DNA of 64,000 bases from Vitreimonas flagellata (GTDB lineage Bacteria; Pseudomonadota; Alphaproteobacteria; Caulobacterales; Aquidulcibacteraceae): assembly GCF_004634425.1 (NCBI RefSeq), contig NZ_SBJL01000001.1:1213001-1277000 (forward strand), in the 5' to 3' direction. Under the pieces are notes generated by a model. That model did not search any database and was not told the DNA's origin. It saw nothing but the letters and a program-made list of their open reading frames with translations. The position numbers and the translations under genes are program-made. Every line of letters begins with the position of its first letter. Position 1 is the stretch's first letter. This document shows positions 46,889 through 52,716 of this stretch, piece after piece.

Positions 46889-47215
46889 TTAACGGTTGCG
46901 GCCGCCGCGACGATTGTGGTCGTCGCCATGGCAATCGTCGTCGCTTTCGCTGCGCACGATTTCGCCAGAGCTGCGGTTCAGATGCAGTTCCACACAGCGG
47001 TTCTGAGCGTCGAACGCCTTCACCTCATACAAGCCGTCATCGCGCTCGATTTCGACAACGCGGAAGCCCTGACCTGACAGGCGGCTTTCGATCTGGCTCA
47101 GCGAGAGTTCAGGCTGGGTATTGTTAGATTGCGCATAGGCCGGCACGGCGAACGCGCCGACGAGCACCAAAGCAGCGGAAGCGGCGGCGATGCGTGAGCG
47201 AACGTTATTGAGCAT
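46889..47215 (-). CDS. PepSY domain protein, exported
   Basis: 108 residues, ATG 47215 with AGAGGG upstream. Signal peptide (AVPAYA before Q, about residue 29), then a single PepSY-like domain (LSLSQIESRLSGQGFRVVEIERDDGLYEVKAF, CVELHLNRSSGEIVRSESD) and an Asp/His/Arg-rich tail. PepSY proteins often modulate peptidases or sensors in the periplasm. It is divergent from a second PepSY gene that leads a two-component operon. Confidence 0.8.
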   Translation of the reverse strand: MLNNVRSRIAAASAALVLVGAFAVPAYAQSNNTQPELSLSQIESRLSGQGFRVVEIERDDGLYEVKAFDAQNRCVELHLNRSSGEIVRSESDDDCHGDDHNRRGGRNR

Positions 47216-47339: not shown

Positions 47340-47666
47340 ATGATGAAGCGTCTCCGCCCCGCCCTTCTCGCCCTGGCCGCCGGCCTTGCGTTCGCCGCGC
47401 CGGCGTTCGCGCATGGCGATCGTGGACGCAGCGGCGACCACGACGACGCGCGACGCGCTGTCGAAATGCGGCAAGCGCTTCCCCTCACGCGCATTATGAG
47501 CATCGCGCAAGAAGCCGTGCCTGGCGAAATCATCGAGATCGAACTTGATCACGATGGCGATCAGCTGATCTATGAGGTCAAGATTCTCGCCCGTAACGGC
47601 CGCGTCCGTGAGGTCGAGATCGACGCGCGTTCGGGCGCGGTGCTGAAGGTCGAAGACGAGGATTAA
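47340..47666 (+). CDS. PepSY domain protein, exported
   Basis: 108 residues from ATG 47340 (or 47343). Signal peptide ending AFAAPAFA, then a His/Asp-rich stretch and one PepSY-like domain (LTRIMSIAQEAVPGEIIEIELDHDGDQLIYEVKILA, VREVEIDARSGAVLKVEDED). Same length as the divergent PepSY gene though sequence differs. It overlaps the response regulator start (TAATG), so it is part of that operon and may influence the sensor from the periplasm. Confidence 0.82.
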   Translation: MMKRLRPALLALAAGLAFAAPAFAHGDRGRSGDHDDARRAVEMRQALPLTRIMSIAQEAVPGEIIEIELDHDGDQLIYEVKILARNGRVREVEIDARSGAVLKVEDED

Positions 47667-48325
47667 TGCGCGCGCTTCTGGTTGAGGATGACGACGACAT
47701 CGCCGACGATGTCGCGCGAGCGCTCACCAGCGCCGGCTACCTAGTCGAACGCGCCGCCGATGGCGAGAACGCGTGGTTCCTCGGCGATACGGAAGATTTC
47801 GCCGTCGTCGTGCTCGATCTGGGTTTGCCCGTGCTGGACGGCATCTCGGTTTTGAAGCGTTGGCGCGCGGCCGACCGCGTTATGCCCGTGCTCATCCTCT
47901 CTGCGCGCGGCGCGTGGACGGAAAAGGTCGACGGCATCGAAGCCGGCGCTGACGATTATCTCGCGAAACCCTTTGAGATCGGCGAATTGGTCGCGCGCGT
48001 GCGGGCGTTGACGCGGCGCGCGGGCGGCCACGCCAGTTCAGTGCTCACCATCGGCAAGCTCGCGCTCGACACGCGGCGCATGGCGGTGCTGGTCGAAGGC
48101 GTGCCGCAAAAGGTCTCGCCGCTTGAATATCGCCTGCTCGATTATCTCGCGCACCAACAAGGCCGCACCGTTTCGGCTGGCGAACTCGCAGACCATTTGC
48201 ACGGCGCCGACGGCGCGGTGGACGCGAACGCGATCGAAGCTTTGGTCGCACGTATTCGCCGCAAGATCGGTCGCGACGTGATCGAGACGCGCCGCGGCTT
48301 TGGCTATGTGCTGAGCGGCGCCTGA
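47666..48325 (+). CDS. OmpR/PhoB-family response regulator
   Basis: 219 residues. Receiver domain with acidic pocket (EDDD, residues 7-10), phospho-acceptor Asp51 (VVLDLGLPVLDG) and Lys101 (LAKPFE). C-terminal winged helix with VSPLEYRLLDYLAHQQGRTVSAGELADHL and a final IRRKIGRDVIETRRGFGYVL. Its ATG overlaps the upstream PepSY stop, and its stop overlaps the sensor kinase start. QseB/PmrA-like in type. It probably autoregulates through the repeats at 47303-47319. Confidence 0.95.
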   Translation: MRALLVEDDDDIADDVARALTSAGYLVERAADGENAWFLGDTEDFAVVVLDLGLPVLDGISVLKRWRAADRVMPVLILSARGAWTEKVDGIEAGADDYLAKPFEIGELVARVRALTRRAGGHASSVLTIGKLALDTRRMAVLVEGVPQKVSPLEYRLLDYLAHQQGRTVSAGELADHLHGADGAVDANAIEALVARIRRKIGRDVIETRRGFGYVLSGA

Positions 48326-49644
48326 TGCAACGCTCGCTGCGCGTCCGTCTGCTGATCGGCGGCGCGTTCGCCGTGTTCGCAGCGCTTGCTGTCGCTTGGG
48401 CCGCGATGGGCGTGCTGTTCGAACGCCATTTGCAGCGCCAGGTCGAAGCGGATCTCACCGCGCGTGGGCTTGAAGTGATCGCGACGCTCGGCCCCAATCC
48501 CGAAGGCGCGCTCGCCGTGCTCTCACCGCCGAGCGATCCGCGCTTCGGCGCGCCAGCGAGCGGGCTCTATTGGCAAGTCTCCGGCGAGGGCGTGCTGCTG
48601 CGCTCGCGCTCATTGTGGGACGCCACACTCGCTACGCCCGGCCCGCCCCGCGCGGACGCATGGACCAACGGCCAGATGGAAGGCCCGTACGAGCAGCGCC
48701 TCGTTTATGTGGAGCGCGAGATTAGGCTCGACGCCCAAAGCGCGCCGCTAACCGTGCTGCTCGGCGCCGACTATCAAACAGTGCAAACAGCGCGCGAAGC
48801 GTTTGCGCGCGAGCTTGGCCTCTTCCTTGTTCTGCTCTGGGCGGTGCTTTCGGCGGCGGCATGGGTGCAAGTCGAGCTCGGCCTGCGCCCACTCGAGCAC
48901 GTGCGCGCAGCGCTTGGCGCATTGCGCAGCCAAGCCTCGGCGCGCCTCTCTGAGCGCGACTATCCAACGGAAGCCGCGCCGCTCGCCAACGCCATCAACG
49001 AGTTGGCCGAAACACGCGAACGCGATCTGGAACAAGCCAAGCATCGCGCCGCCGACCTCGCACACTCACTCAAGACACCGCTCGCCGCCCTTTCCGCGCA
49101 AAGCCGCCGCGCCCGCGAAGCCGGCGCGACTGACGCAGCTGACGGCCTCGACCGCGCGATCGCCGCCGCAACCCGCGCCGTCGAACGCGAACTCGCCCGC
49201 ACGCGCGCCGCCGCCACACGCGGCGCCAGCAGCAATGCGCGCACGATCATCACGCGCGTGCTGCAAGTGATCGAGCGCACCGAAGCGGGCCAGCGCATCC
49301 GCTTCGAAAACAATCTGAGCGATGCGTCGCTGCCCGTCAGCGACGACGTGCTCATGGAAATGACCGGGCCATTGTTGGAGAACGCCACGCGCTACGCCAC
49401 CAGCCGCGTGCGCGTCAGCGACGATGGCGGCGCGCTGATGATTGAAGACGACGGGCCGGGGCTTGATCCGTCACAAGCGGAAGCCGTGCTGGAGCGCGGC
49501 AAACGGCTCGATGAGAGCGGCCACGGGCTCGGCCTCTCCATCGCCAACGATCTCGCGCAAGCTACGGGTGCTGACTTAAGCTTAGATCGCGCGCCCGAAC
49601 TCGGCGGGTTGCGCGTGACTTTGCGCTGGCGCACGGCCAGCTAG
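48325..49644 (+). CDS. Sensor histidine kinase, PhoQ/QseC-like
   Basis: 439 residues. Two transmembrane helices (about 9-30 and 162-183) bracket a periplasmic sensor of about 130 residues; a HAMP-like segment follows, then the phospho-acceptor His247 in ADLAHSLKTPLAALS and the ATPase domain with ALLENATRY-type N box and GHGLGLSIANDLAQ. The HSLKTPL box is of the PhoQ kind. Partner of the regulator immediately upstream. The stop is followed by a weak 6-bp hairpin with a T tract. Confidence 0.93.
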   Translation: MQRSLRVRLLIGGAFAVFAALAVAWAAMGVLFERHLQRQVEADLTARGLEVIATLGPNPEGALAVLSPPSDPRFGAPASGLYWQVSGEGVLLRSRSLWDATLATPGPPRADAWTNGQMEGPYEQRLVYVEREIRLDAQSAPLTVLLGADYQTVQTAREAFARELGLFLVLLWAVLSAAAWVQVELGLRPLEHVRAALGALRSQASARLSERDYPTEAAPLANAINELAETRERDLEQAKHRAADLAHSLKTPLAALSAQSRRAREAGATDAADGLDRAIAAATRAVERELARTRAAATRGASSNARTIITRVLQVIERTEAGQRIRFENNLSDASLPVSDDVLMEMTGPLLENATRYATSRVRVSDDGGALMIEDDGPGLDPSQAEAVLERGKRLDESGHGLGLSIANDLAQATGADLSLDRAPELGGLRVTLRWRTAS

Positions 49645-49723
49645 GTCCAGACATGCGAAGGACGCGGAAGCCCAAGCGTCCGCGCCCTTTCTTTTGACCG
49701 CCAAGTCAAAAATCGTTCGAAGC

Positions 49724-49816
49724 TTATGCGACGATCTGGGCGGCTTGGTTCAACGTGGCCATCGCCATCGGGGCGAACACGGCGCAGGCGGCGATCAGGG
49801 CGTAAAACTTGGTCAT
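49724..49816 (-). CDS. 30-residue exported peptide, tandem copy A
   Basis: ATG 49814-49816, TAA 49724-49726. MTKFYALIAACAVFAPMAMA then TLNQAAQIVA. The first half is a signal-peptide-like hydrophobic segment after a Lys, and an AxA site (AMA) precedes TLNQAAQIVA. GAGAG lies 7-11 nt before the start. The last eleven residues (ATLNQAAQIVA) equal those of the copy upstream at 49845-49940, with four synonymous and no amino-acid differences. It could be a tiny membrane protein or precursor of a secreted decapeptide. Confidence 0.72.
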   Translation of the reverse strand: MTKFYALIAACAVFAPMAMATLNQAAQIVA

Positions 49817-49844
49817 TGGAATGCTCTCTGAAATTCGGTTGCGA

Positions 49845-49940
49845 TTAGGCGACGATTTGCGCGGCTTGGTTCAGCGTGGCGTAGGCGAACGGCGCGAACG
49901 TCAGAGCGGCGATGATCAGGCTGAAGAACTTGGCGGTCAT
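49845..49940 (-). CDS. 31-residue exported peptide, tandem copy B
   Basis: ATG 49938-49940, TAA 49845-49847, GGGAG 9-13 nt before the start. MTAKFFSLIIAALTFAPFAYA then TLNQAAQIVA. It has the same plan as copy A: short Lys-containing head, hydrophobic core, AxA site (AYA), then the same ten residues. A strong ribosome site and codon-level conservation argue for translation. It is first in transcription order, 28 nt before copy A, so they are likely cotranscribed. Confidence 0.75.
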   Translation of the reverse strand: MTAKFFSLIIAALTFAPFAYATLNQAAQIVA

Positions 49941-50124
49941 TGGTCTTGCTCCCGGAAGCCCGTCGCTTCCATGAGTTGAAGGTACTAGGCGCTTGGGCAT
50001 AACGATGTGACGTCGGTCACAGGGCGCGATCCGGCGTGCTGGGCCGCCGGTTTGCCGAAATCCCATTGCCCTGCGAGACCGAGGCCGGGCCTAGTGACGG
50101 CCTAGATTCTGGGGACGTCTCGCC

Positions 50125-52716
50125 ATGAAATTCCGCTCATTCGCCGTCGTCGCGGCGCTGTTGCTGTTCGCGCCTGTCGCAGACGCGCAAACTAGCGAGC
50201 GCCAATGGTTCGAGGGCGGGCCGAACCCGCTGCGCTACGAGATCGCGATCACGCCCAACGCCGAGGCCGCCACCTTCGCCGGCGAAGCGCGGATCACGAT
50301 CGAGGTCACTGAGCCCACCCAGGTTCTCACCATGAACGCGCTCGGCCTCGATGTGTCGCGCGTGCGTATCGACAACGCGACCGCCGCTTTCTCCACCAAT
50401 GAAGAAGCGCAAACCCTGAGCCTCACACCGCGCCGCGCCCTGCGGCCGGGGCGGCACACGATTGAGATCACCTACACGGGCGTCATCCAAGACGAAGCCT
50501 ACGGTCTTTTCCGTGTCGAATACCAGGACGACGGCCAAACCAAGCGCGCGCTGGCGACACAATTTGAGCCGGGCGATGCGCGCCGGTTCGCACCGATGTG
50601 GGATCAACCCAATCGCCGCGCAGTATTTTCGCTCACGGTGACGGCGCCGACCAATCAAATGGTTGTCGGCAACATGCCGGCAGCGGAGACGGCCCAGCTG
50701 CGCGGCGGCCTCACCCGCACACGCTTTGCCGACACGCCCTCCATGCCGAGCTACCTGCTCTTCCTCGCGGTCGGCGATTTCGAGCGCGTGACGCGCGACG
50801 TCGATGGAGTTGAACTTGGCGTGGTCGTGCGCCGCGGCGAAACCCATCGCGCACAAGAAGCGCTCACCGCGGGCGAACAATCGCTACGCTATTTCACCGA
50901 GTATTTCGGCATTCGTTACCCGCTGCCGAAGCTCGATATGATCGGCGTGCCCGGCGCCGGCGGCTTTGGCGCGATGGAGAATTGGGGCGCCATTCTCTAT
51001 TTCGACCAATATCTGTTGGTCGATGAGAATTCATCGGAAGCCGAGCGGCAGAACGTGTTCGGCATTGTGGCGCACGAAATCGCGCACCAATGGTTTGGCA
51101 ATCTCGTCACCATGAATTGGTGGGATGATCTGTGGCTCAACGAAGGCTTCGCCTCGTGGATGGCGGCGAAAGCAACGGAAGCCGTGCACCCGGATTGGAA
51201 TCCGTGGCTGGCGCAAATGATCGACGGCACATCCACCGCCATGGCGCTGGACGCCCGCCAGGGCACTCATCCGGTCGTGCAAACCGTCAACACGCTCGAT
51301 GAGGCGAACCTCGCCTTCGACACCATCACCTATGAGAAGGGCTTGGCCGTCATCCGCATGCTTGAGGCGTATGTCGGCGAAGAGGATTTCCGCACGGGCG
51401 TGCGCAATTATCTGAACAGCCGCCTTTACGGCAACGCTCGCACCGAGGATTTGTGGACCGCAGTGCAAGCGGCGTCCGGCCAGCCCGTGCTCGACATCGC
51501 GCGCAGCTTCACCGGTCAGTCGGGCTTCCCGCTCATCACGGCAGAGAGCGCCGATTGCATCACGCGCCGCGGCGCAGGCATCACGCTCACGCAACGTCGC
51601 TTCGCCATGGATGAATCCGCGCGCACCGATCAGCGTTGGGAAATCCCGATGGTCGTCCGCCGCGTCGAAGGCAATGAAGCGCGCCTCGTGTTTCCGGCGA
51701 CGGCGACGACAAGCGCCGAAGTGCTGTTCACCTGCCAGCCCTATCTCGTGAACGCCGGCCAAAGCGGCTTCTTCCGCGTGCTTTATGACCGCGCCAATTT
51801 CGCGCGCCTCACCCGCAGCTTCGCCGCCCTCGAAGATTCCGATCAACTCGGCCTCCTGCTTGATTACTGGGCCTTCGGTCGCAGCGGCGATGCGCCGTTC
51901 ACCGATTATCTCGAACTGGTCAATGTCATCCCGGCCGACGCCAATCCGATCATCGTCATCGACACGATCGGCTCGATGCAAGCGCTCGCGGACTATGCTG
52001 ACGGCCGCCCGAGCGAGGCCGCGATCAAGGCTTACGGCTTGCGCTTGCTGCGCCCCCATTTCGAGCGCACGGGCTGGACCGCCCGCGCGGGCGAAACCTC
52101 CAACGACTCGCAATTGCGCGCCTCACTCATCGCAGCGCTTGGCGATCTCGGCGACGAGAGCGTGATCGCCGAAGCGCGCCGACGCGTGCGCAGCGGCGAA
52201 GCGATCCCCGCCGGCATTCGTAACGCCGTGCTGGGCGTCTATGCCGCGAACGCGACAGCTGCGGATTATGATTCACTACTCGCCCAAGCCCGCGCCGCGT
52301 CTGACTTCGTCGAGCAGCGTCGTTTGTGGCGCCAACTGGCTTCGGCGCAGGACGCAACGCTCGCCCGCCGCACCTTGCAGACGACATTGGGCGACGAGAT
52401 TCCGCGCCAAATTCGTACGCAAGTGATCGCGGTCGTCGCCGGCTCGCATCCGCGCTTGGCCTGGGATTTCCTGGTCGCCAACCGCGCCGCGATCGAGAAC
52501 TATCTCGATCCGCTGCAACGGCTCGAATTTCCGGCCGGCATCGCGGGCGTGAGTTCCGATCCCGCGATGGTGGACGAACTCGAGCGCTACGCCGCCAATT
52601 TCCCAGAAGGCGCACGCCCGACGGTCGTTGCGGCGCAGGCGCAAATCAGGCTTCGCGCACAAACGATCGCCGAGCGTATGCCAGCGGTGGAAGCGTGGGT
52701 CGCGCAACGGCGCTAA
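50125..52716 (+). CDS. M1 family aminopeptidase, exported
   Basis: 863 residues with a signal peptide (PVADA before QT). M1 motifs: GAMEN at 282-286 and the zinc site HEIAH at 317-321 with the third ligand Glu340 in LWLNEGF. N-terminal beta domain and a C-terminal ERAP1-type helical repeat region (about residues 540-860) follow the standard order. It would cleave N-terminal residues of peptides in the periplasm. It is divergent from the tandem small peptides, which end or begin about 185 bp away, and is therefore a neighbour worth noting. Confidence 0.95.
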   Translation: MKFRSFAVVAALLLFAPVADAQTSERQWFEGGPNPLRYEIAITPNAEAATFAGEARITIEVTEPTQVLTMNALGLDVSRVRIDNATAAFSTNEEAQTLSLTPRRALRPGRHTIEITYTGVIQDEAYGLFRVEYQDDGQTKRALATQFEPGDARRFAPMWDQPNRRAVFSLTVTAPTNQMVVGNMPAAETAQLRGGLTRTRFADTPSMPSYLLFLAVGDFERVTRDVDGVELGVVVRRGETHRAQEALTAGEQSLRYFTEYFGIRYPLPKLDMIGVPGAGGFGAMENWGAILYFDQYLLVDENSSEAERQNVFGIVAHEIAHQWFGNLVTMNWWDDLWLNEGFASWMAAKATEAVHPDWNPWLAQMIDGTSTAMALDARQGTHPVVQTVNTLDEANLAFDTITYEKGLAVIRMLEAYVGEEDFRTGVRNYLNSRLYGNARTEDLWTAVQAASGQPVLDIARSFTGQSGFPLITAESADCITRRGAGITLTQRRFAMDESARTDQRWEIPMVVRRVEGNEARLVFPATATTSAEVLFTCQPYLVNAGQSGFFRVLYDRANFARLTRSFAALEDSDQLGLLLDYWAFGRSGDAPFTDYLELVNVIPADANPIIVIDTIGSMQALADYADGRPSEAAIKAYGLRLLRPHFERTGWTARAGETSNDSQLRASLIAALGDLGDESVIAEARRRVRSGEAIPAGIRNAVLGVYAANATAADYDSLLAQARAASDFVEQRRLWRQLASAQDATLARRTLQTTLGDEIPRQIRTQVIAVVAGSHPRLAWDFLVANRAAIENYLDPLQRLEFPAGIAGVSSDPAMVDELERYAANFPEGARPTVVAAQAQIRLRAQTIAERMPAVEAWVAQRR

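Follow-up and report, generated by a model that had tools for sequence, protein, structure and literature searches.

A multicopy, lineage-restricted family of putative membrane micropeptides behind a class II CRP-type promoter in Vitreimonas flagellata and its relatives

Two short open reading frames (ORFs) on the minus strand of a 64,000-nucleotide (nt) stretch of Vitreimonas flagellata DNA, here called the window, belong to a multicopy gene family restricted to one lineage. It is near certain that this family exists, that it is under selection and that it has a promoter of its own. With somewhat more confidence than doubt, the products are read as CRP-activated inner-membrane micropeptides that would act uncut at the membrane. 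Coordinates are window positions unless a contig is named. The own genome (G000) comprises 3.91 Mb on 16 contigs. Relatives are labelled G0xx, their genera g1 to g14 and individual loci Lxxx.

The micropeptide family

The first gene (49845..49940, minus strand) codes for the 31 residues MTAKFFSLIIAALTFAPFAYATLNQAAQIVA and the second (49724..49816, minus strand) for the 30 residues MTKFYALIAACAVFAPMAMATLNQAAQIVA, in agreement with an earlier note on this DNA, which gave them 31 and 30 codons. Both calls are based on the ORF, orthologues and the ratio of non-synonymous to synonymous substitution rates (dN/dS), that of the second gene also on its own-genome copies. The spacer between the genes (49817..49844, minus strand) is 28 nt long and contains AGAGAG, a possible ribosome site found by eye. 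The 11 codons shared by the pair, read from the DNA, carried four synonymous differences (CTG/TTG, GCG/GCC, CAA/CAG and GCC/GCA) and no amino-acid difference, as had been claimed.

With the 30-residue peptide as query, the own genome gave 25 matches at E ≤ 10, of which 20 had E ≤ 1e-5; the other window gene gave 24. The five matches beyond the 20 strong ones were weak (E 3e-4 to 0.2), and at least one of them (C4:199969) may be due to chance. Counted over several searches, the own genome has about 25 such ORFs, spread over about 18 dispersed units; 6 of these are plainly pairs in tandem. A profile of 16 members matched 36 of 101 genomes, the own genome and its relatives. Within the genus, the homologues on which the earlier note had staked its claim were found in 29 of 30 genomes (own included), with 1 to 24 matches each; the exception, G028, is 57% complete. 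The number of own-genome matches and the presence in nearly every genome of the genus show that the pair did not arise by chance. Four other genera of the same taxonomic family (g8, g10, g11 and g14) also carry the family. Order-wide, a profile of 47 members matched 49 of 398 genomes at E ≤ 0.01, 36 of them in taxonomic family f1 and 13 outside. The latter had one match each (E 4e-4 to 9e-3), with about 3 to 4 expected by chance from the per-genome E-values, which leaves a slight surplus. Of 385 genomes across the class, a single one besides the own genome matched at E ≤ 1e-3 (6e-4).

The window pair had no match in Pfam, NCBIfam, PHROGs or PADLOC (at the library cut-off; for PHROGs and PADLOC any match at E ≤ 1), and the DNA from 49600 to 50130 had none in Rfam. 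Five relatives gave sub-cut-off matches only, the best to the VraH family with 14.3 bits against a cut-off of 40. No paper in the PubMed Central (PMC) text search contained TLNQAAQIVA, NQAAQIVA, MTKFYALIAA or KFYSLIAA, and topic searches over titles and abstract openings returned no description of such a family. The tail is conserved, as the earlier note had it, and the family is without a name in any library searched.

When the flanks of 22 units in three relatives, including a unit for a 44-residue peptide described below, were compared with 14 own-genome regions, 19 gave some match and 3 gave none. The best flank match lay at most about 1 kb from an own-genome unit in 14 of the 22, indicating that many units were inherited in place and that the family belongs to the chromosome and has passed mostly by vertical descent. 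Origin from a mobile element was rejected: tblastn searches of plasmids and phages at E ≤ 1 gave no match. Viral contigs, searched with one 30-base pattern, gave none either. Three near-identical consecutive units spaced by about 960 nt (L248/L228, G042:C55 about 50260-52300) represent a local amplification. At L040 (G000:C2:814255), a family-like ORF has an early stop within the tail and a longer N-terminal frame.

The two-component system (47666-49644) and the exported aminopeptidase (50125-52716), which the earlier note had pointed to as flanking genes, were dropped as functional partners, since other copies lie between unrelated genes, among them parAB/gidB, enolase/pyruvate dehydrogenase and argJ/secA (names read from translations). 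When the aminopeptidase was used as bait, its close named relatives were mostly Hyphomonadaceae and Caulobacterales metagenome-assembled genomes, and a tandem pair was near it in 7 of 80 loci (L073, L074, L075, L077, L082, L083 and L092). In an excerpt of PMC12700997, Terricaulis, Vitreimonas and Aquidulcibacter form a single clade next to Hyphomonadaceae. Adjoining the two-component system is a divergent pair of genes for small, exported, acidic proteins of 108 residues (46889-47215, minus strand, and 47340-47666, plus strand), which resemble proteins of the PepSY type.

Selection and sequence constraint

Nine orthologues of each window gene gave an overall dN/dS of 0.24. Head and tail had values of 0.25 and 0.21 in the first gene and of 0.12 and 0.43 in the second. 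Among 22 own-genome paralogues, the head had 0.39 and the tail 0.19. The values show that the ORFs are selected as proteins and that the whole peptide is constrained. The earlier view of two selected genes of one family forming one unit was borne out, and the synonymous/non-synonymous comparison that it had suggested revealed purifying selection. Its further claim, selection on the C-terminal peptide, held in part. The tail is more constrained across paralogues, whereas within orthologues the constraint covers the whole peptide, and in the second gene it is even stronger on the head. Constraint on the tail alone is seen when paralogue types are compared, but not inside a single gene; the hydrophobic halves of the two window genes have diverged because two such types separated long ago.

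Members with proline at position 16 (P16-type) were collected with the pattern P.A.{5}QA, which makes P16, A18, Q24 and A25 invariant by construction and leaves two real members outside the set of 75. The length from P16 to the end was exactly 15 residues in 67 of the 75. The codon of Gln-24 was CAA in 70 of the 75 and in 18 of 20 at the same Gln in other genera, against 30:27 at Gln-27 and 48:52 in the genome. This bias points to a constraint at the nucleotide level within the ORF.

Promoter

Upstream regions were compared for 51 first genes, taken from 78 distinct ORFs (L049 at 1589 was omitted for its out-of-frame overlap with a real family gene). The palindrome GTGAC-N4-GTCAC, with at least 9 of 10 positions matching, lay 64-88 nt upstream of the ATG in 43 of these genes, 40 from the own genus and 3 from g10. 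As background, 229 kb of own-genome DNA, family units included, held 19 such palindromes. Though the promoters were picked by the palindrome alone, all 43 had T-12 and A-11 at a fixed distance from it, 42 had T at the last hexamer position and 36 had A at +1. Counting T, A and the last T as -12, -11 and -7 places the centre of the palindrome at -41.5, which is the class II CAP position given in an excerpt of PMC7192510. The 43 first genes would thus have class II CRP-type promoters, in which a palindrome at -41.5 and a -10 hexamer suffice without a -35 element.

In the window, the palindrome GTGACCGACGTCAC (minus-strand reading) occupies 50007..50020, centred at -41.5 from the predicted start, and the hexamer TACCTT at 49979..49984 (minus strand) is placed as -10-like. 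Seven first genes lacking the palindrome (L017 at 513 and 963, L069 at 1500 and 1771, L071 at 1500 and 1773, L072 at 1500) were seen by eye to have GCATCC-N16-GCATCT upstream. This element might be recognised by an alternative sigma factor.

A 52-nt promoter model was built from 34 of the 43 promoters. Run on four genomes, it gave 38 sites at E < 1e-3. Family units account for 35 of these, a 44-residue peptide for two and a 25-residue ORF for the remaining one. The own genome had 14 sites (13 at family units), G023 had 11 (10), G020 had 9 (8) and G027 had 4 (4); recovery is partly by construction, the model being made from own-genus promoters. The window promoter (G000:C1:1262971-1263021, minus strand) scored E 4.2e-9, being itself one of the 34. 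Among 20 further genomes, those bearing the family in g8, g10, g11 and g14 gave 3 to 20 matches at E ≤ 0.1, and those of g2, g3, g5, g6 and g13, which lack it, gave no match below E 0.05. One partial match at 8e-4 and one at 0.06 were found in g9; the best match in three genomes of other families was 0.086. The model also led to 40 leading genes in other genera, diverged in sequence but alike in design. These were first genes of 26-36 residues with no D/E, K/R/H near the start and a listed end type; left out were second genes in general, L243, the 37-residue ORFs of L261, a 53-residue ORF of L258 and L218, which is cut by a contig end. The gain over protein search shows in G042, where the first protein profile gave 4 matches (E ≤ 0.01) and the promoter model 20 (E ≤ 0.1).

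The 44-residue peptide MTAAMTEMAHDARNTLQSALVFVLCIGAGMVLPIVLAVLGFQAL, with one hydrophobic stretch, follows the same promoter and leader hairpin at G000:C1:962787-962837 (minus strand, L195) and G023:C1:1730308 (L199). Judged from this arrangement, it is a putative second micropeptide family of the same regulon. Two similar 37-residue ORFs stand behind such promoters in G045 (L261), and a family-like 25-residue ORF without the QAA tail was seen at L191 (G020:C1:1951800).

Candidate regulator

A search of the own genome for the Crp-type helix-turn-helix family gave 12 matches, 8 of them over the cut-off. One of these 8 proteins, of 229 residues (C1:1319756-1320442), was CRP-like, with the recognition helix SREKVNR, read as GTGA-type, and a cyclic-nucleotide cassette, both resembling those of CRP. 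The gene and the family nearly co-occur: among 24 genomes chosen by hand, a homologue with at least 50% identity was present in 10 of the 11 that bear the family and in 1 of the 13 that lack it; the G050 homologue has 30% identity only. A family promoter begins 148 nt past the CRP-like gene in G020, a family unit is directly upstream of it on the same strand in G042, and one lies 2.3 kb away in G027. Weak promoter-like stretches without a family ORF follow the CRP-like gene in L196 at 2477 (G000) and L288 at 2990 (G023). They are possibly lost units, G020 having a working-looking unit there.

Leader structure

The window leader extends from the predicted start (A, 49972) to the base preceding the ATG (49941..49972, minus strand). 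It contains the hairpin TGGAAGC-N5-GCTTCCG (49971-49953, minus strand) and the ribosome-site-like GGGAG (49953-49949, minus strand). The unit in the window is more than its coding pair and includes a promoter element and a structured leader. The leaders covary across the family. Hairpin arms from the predicted start paired with their own partner above shuffled partners, with z -6.5 for the 43 promoters and z -4.1 for 37 from other genera. Pairing above shuffled partners was likewise seen between the -10..-1 segment and the ribosome-site region of the same unit (z -6.4 and -3.9 in the two sets). Relatedness of the sequences can inflate these z values; of the upstream control segments, two per set, three of four were near zero and one had z -2.4. 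This outer arm is upstream of the predicted start, so the outer pairing could act only in longer transcripts, and we read it as a probable guard against translation of read-through RNA.

Such leaders recall type I toxins. These are typically small hydrophobic membrane peptides of under 60 residues, a description that peptides of 30-31 residues would fit; in the toxin systems, an antisense or trans RNA pairs with the mRNA, and an excess of the peptide halts growth or depolarises the membrane. An excerpt of PMC8309996 describes ZorO as 29 residues long, hydrophobic and tandemly duplicated, its ribosome site hidden by the 5' untranslated region. The family peptides might likewise be membrane-active and harmful at high level, held off by the activator-dependent promoter and the leader that hides the ribosome site in longer transcripts, perhaps with an overlapping antisense RNA. 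Their length of about 30 residues, the tandem arrangement and the outer pairing are in its favour. No antisense partner was found within about 650 nt of 39 units, where the longest leader complement averaged 8.87 nt against 8.82 nt in mismatched flanks, a fully overlapping antisense RNA being outside the reach of this comparison, and the window unit itself shows only a weak outer pairing. Toxicity is a possibility we hold with considerable doubt, and it may be the effector side of CRP-activated membrane peptides rather than an alternative to them. From the promoters and leaders, we favour tight toxin-like control of expression; no RNA antitoxin was found.

Processing and membrane features

The hydropathy maximum over 19 residues was 1.96 and 1.87 for the window pair, and 74 of the 75 P16-type members had no D/E and no K/R beyond residue 8. 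AlphaFold2 modelled a single helix of residues 2-29 with a mean predicted local distance difference test score of 95.3 and a predicted template modelling score of 0.46; this helix does not discriminate, as a signal peptide would model likewise.

The earlier note had proposed that a cut after residue 20 releases one and the same decapeptide. At this position, the small residues at -3 and -1 that mark a conserved signal peptidase I cut point were not kept across the family. Residue 20, the proposed -1, was A in 67, S in 3, V in 4 and T in 1 of the 75 P16-type members. Among the 40 leading genes of other genera, 35 (31 distinct sequences and four repeats) had proline at position 20 instead of 16. 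Signal peptidase I is not known to tolerate proline at -1. Given P20 in 35 of 40 and V/T in 5 of 75, a cut after residue 20 is not a property of the family, and the proposal was not borne out in that form. A membrane micropeptide, the note's own alternative, fits better, and the peptides are probably left uncut.

Discussion

The proposed sequence of events is as follows. The CRP-like activator would bind GTGAC-N4-GTCAC at -41.5 and turn on many units together, most of them from their own class II CRP-type promoter. Each short mRNA would carry a hairpin at its 5' end, and one or two peptides would be translated from it. These would enter the inner membrane post-translationally, with the N-terminus and its K3 inside, and form one bent helix of about 27 residues. 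Uncut, they would work by self-assembly or by assembly with a membrane complex.

Several observations weigh against this account. The palindrome is missing from eight of the 51 first genes. No CRP-like gene was found in G052 (83% complete), which carries the family; G044, which lacks the family, has a homologue of 52% identity; and no unit was near the CRP-like gene in the 5 kb read in G036, G038, G039, G045 and G049. Conservation on one helical face was not significant (p 0.78 for P16-type, 0.085 for P20-type and 0.25 for both). The P16-type sequences resemble signal peptides, with P at -5, A at -3 and A/S at -1 in 70 of 75 (a set filtered on P and A18), and a cut after residue 18 is possible in 26 of 31 P20-type members.

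The last two points bear on export, by which the head would be a signal peptide and signal peptidase I would free the tail (TLNQAAQIVA and variants) to the periplasm or the medium as a signal or modulator. Precursors of enterococcal pheromones and pheromone inhibitors are likewise very short and signal-peptide-like, the short tail being the product. They differ in being Gram-positive and in having few copies, and the present family has no conserved cleavage point. The stronger constraint on the tail among own-genome paralogues agrees with export, and a shifted cut site is possible in such Ala-rich sequences, so the P20-type members leave room for it. The residues found at position 20, the more constrained head in second-gene orthologues and the many slightly differing tails in one genome speak against it, and we consider export rather unlikely. 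That the units are small RNA genes with incidental ORFs, as short units, covarying leaders and the CAA bias at Gln-24 might suggest, was rejected as highly improbable on the dN/dS of 0.24 in both orthologue sets, along with the near-constant peptide length and the lack of an Rfam match.

For CRP-activated membrane peptides, the nearest known systems are the E. coli membrane type I toxins ZorO/OrzO, DinQ, Ldr and Ibs, which, as far as excerpts of PMC8309996 and PMC3567139 describe such systems, are alike in the short hydrophobic peptide, the tandem copies and a leader set against the ribosome site. The present family differs in its CRP-type promoter, in having up to about 25 copies and in that no antitoxin RNA and no sequence match were found. 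Class II CAP (CRP)-dependent promoters such as gal share the site centre at -41.5 (excerpt of PMC7192510) and the GTGA/TCAC palindrome. By comparison, nearly all strong model sites here lead to one micropeptide family, with the start site and the regulator site predicted.

A bolder picture is offered tentatively and with less confidence than the membrane role itself. One CRP-like regulator could be largely devoted to a dispersed array of 10-25 near-redundant micropeptide units. The leaders of many would be silent in read-through RNA, promoter control and self-silencing would replace an antitoxin, and an energy or carbon signal would set off all units at once, giving a membrane response amplified by dosage.

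The family reaches up to about 25 copies per genome, is served by a promoter class of its own and comes with a candidate regulator to match, yet it is missing from the curated libraries searched. Searching from the regulator site can recover micropeptides that have drifted beyond the reach of protein search, as G042 exemplifies. The family offers a clean case in which to ask why bacteria multiply such small membrane peptides, and whether an activator together with a hairpin in the leader is able to stand in for an RNA antitoxin.
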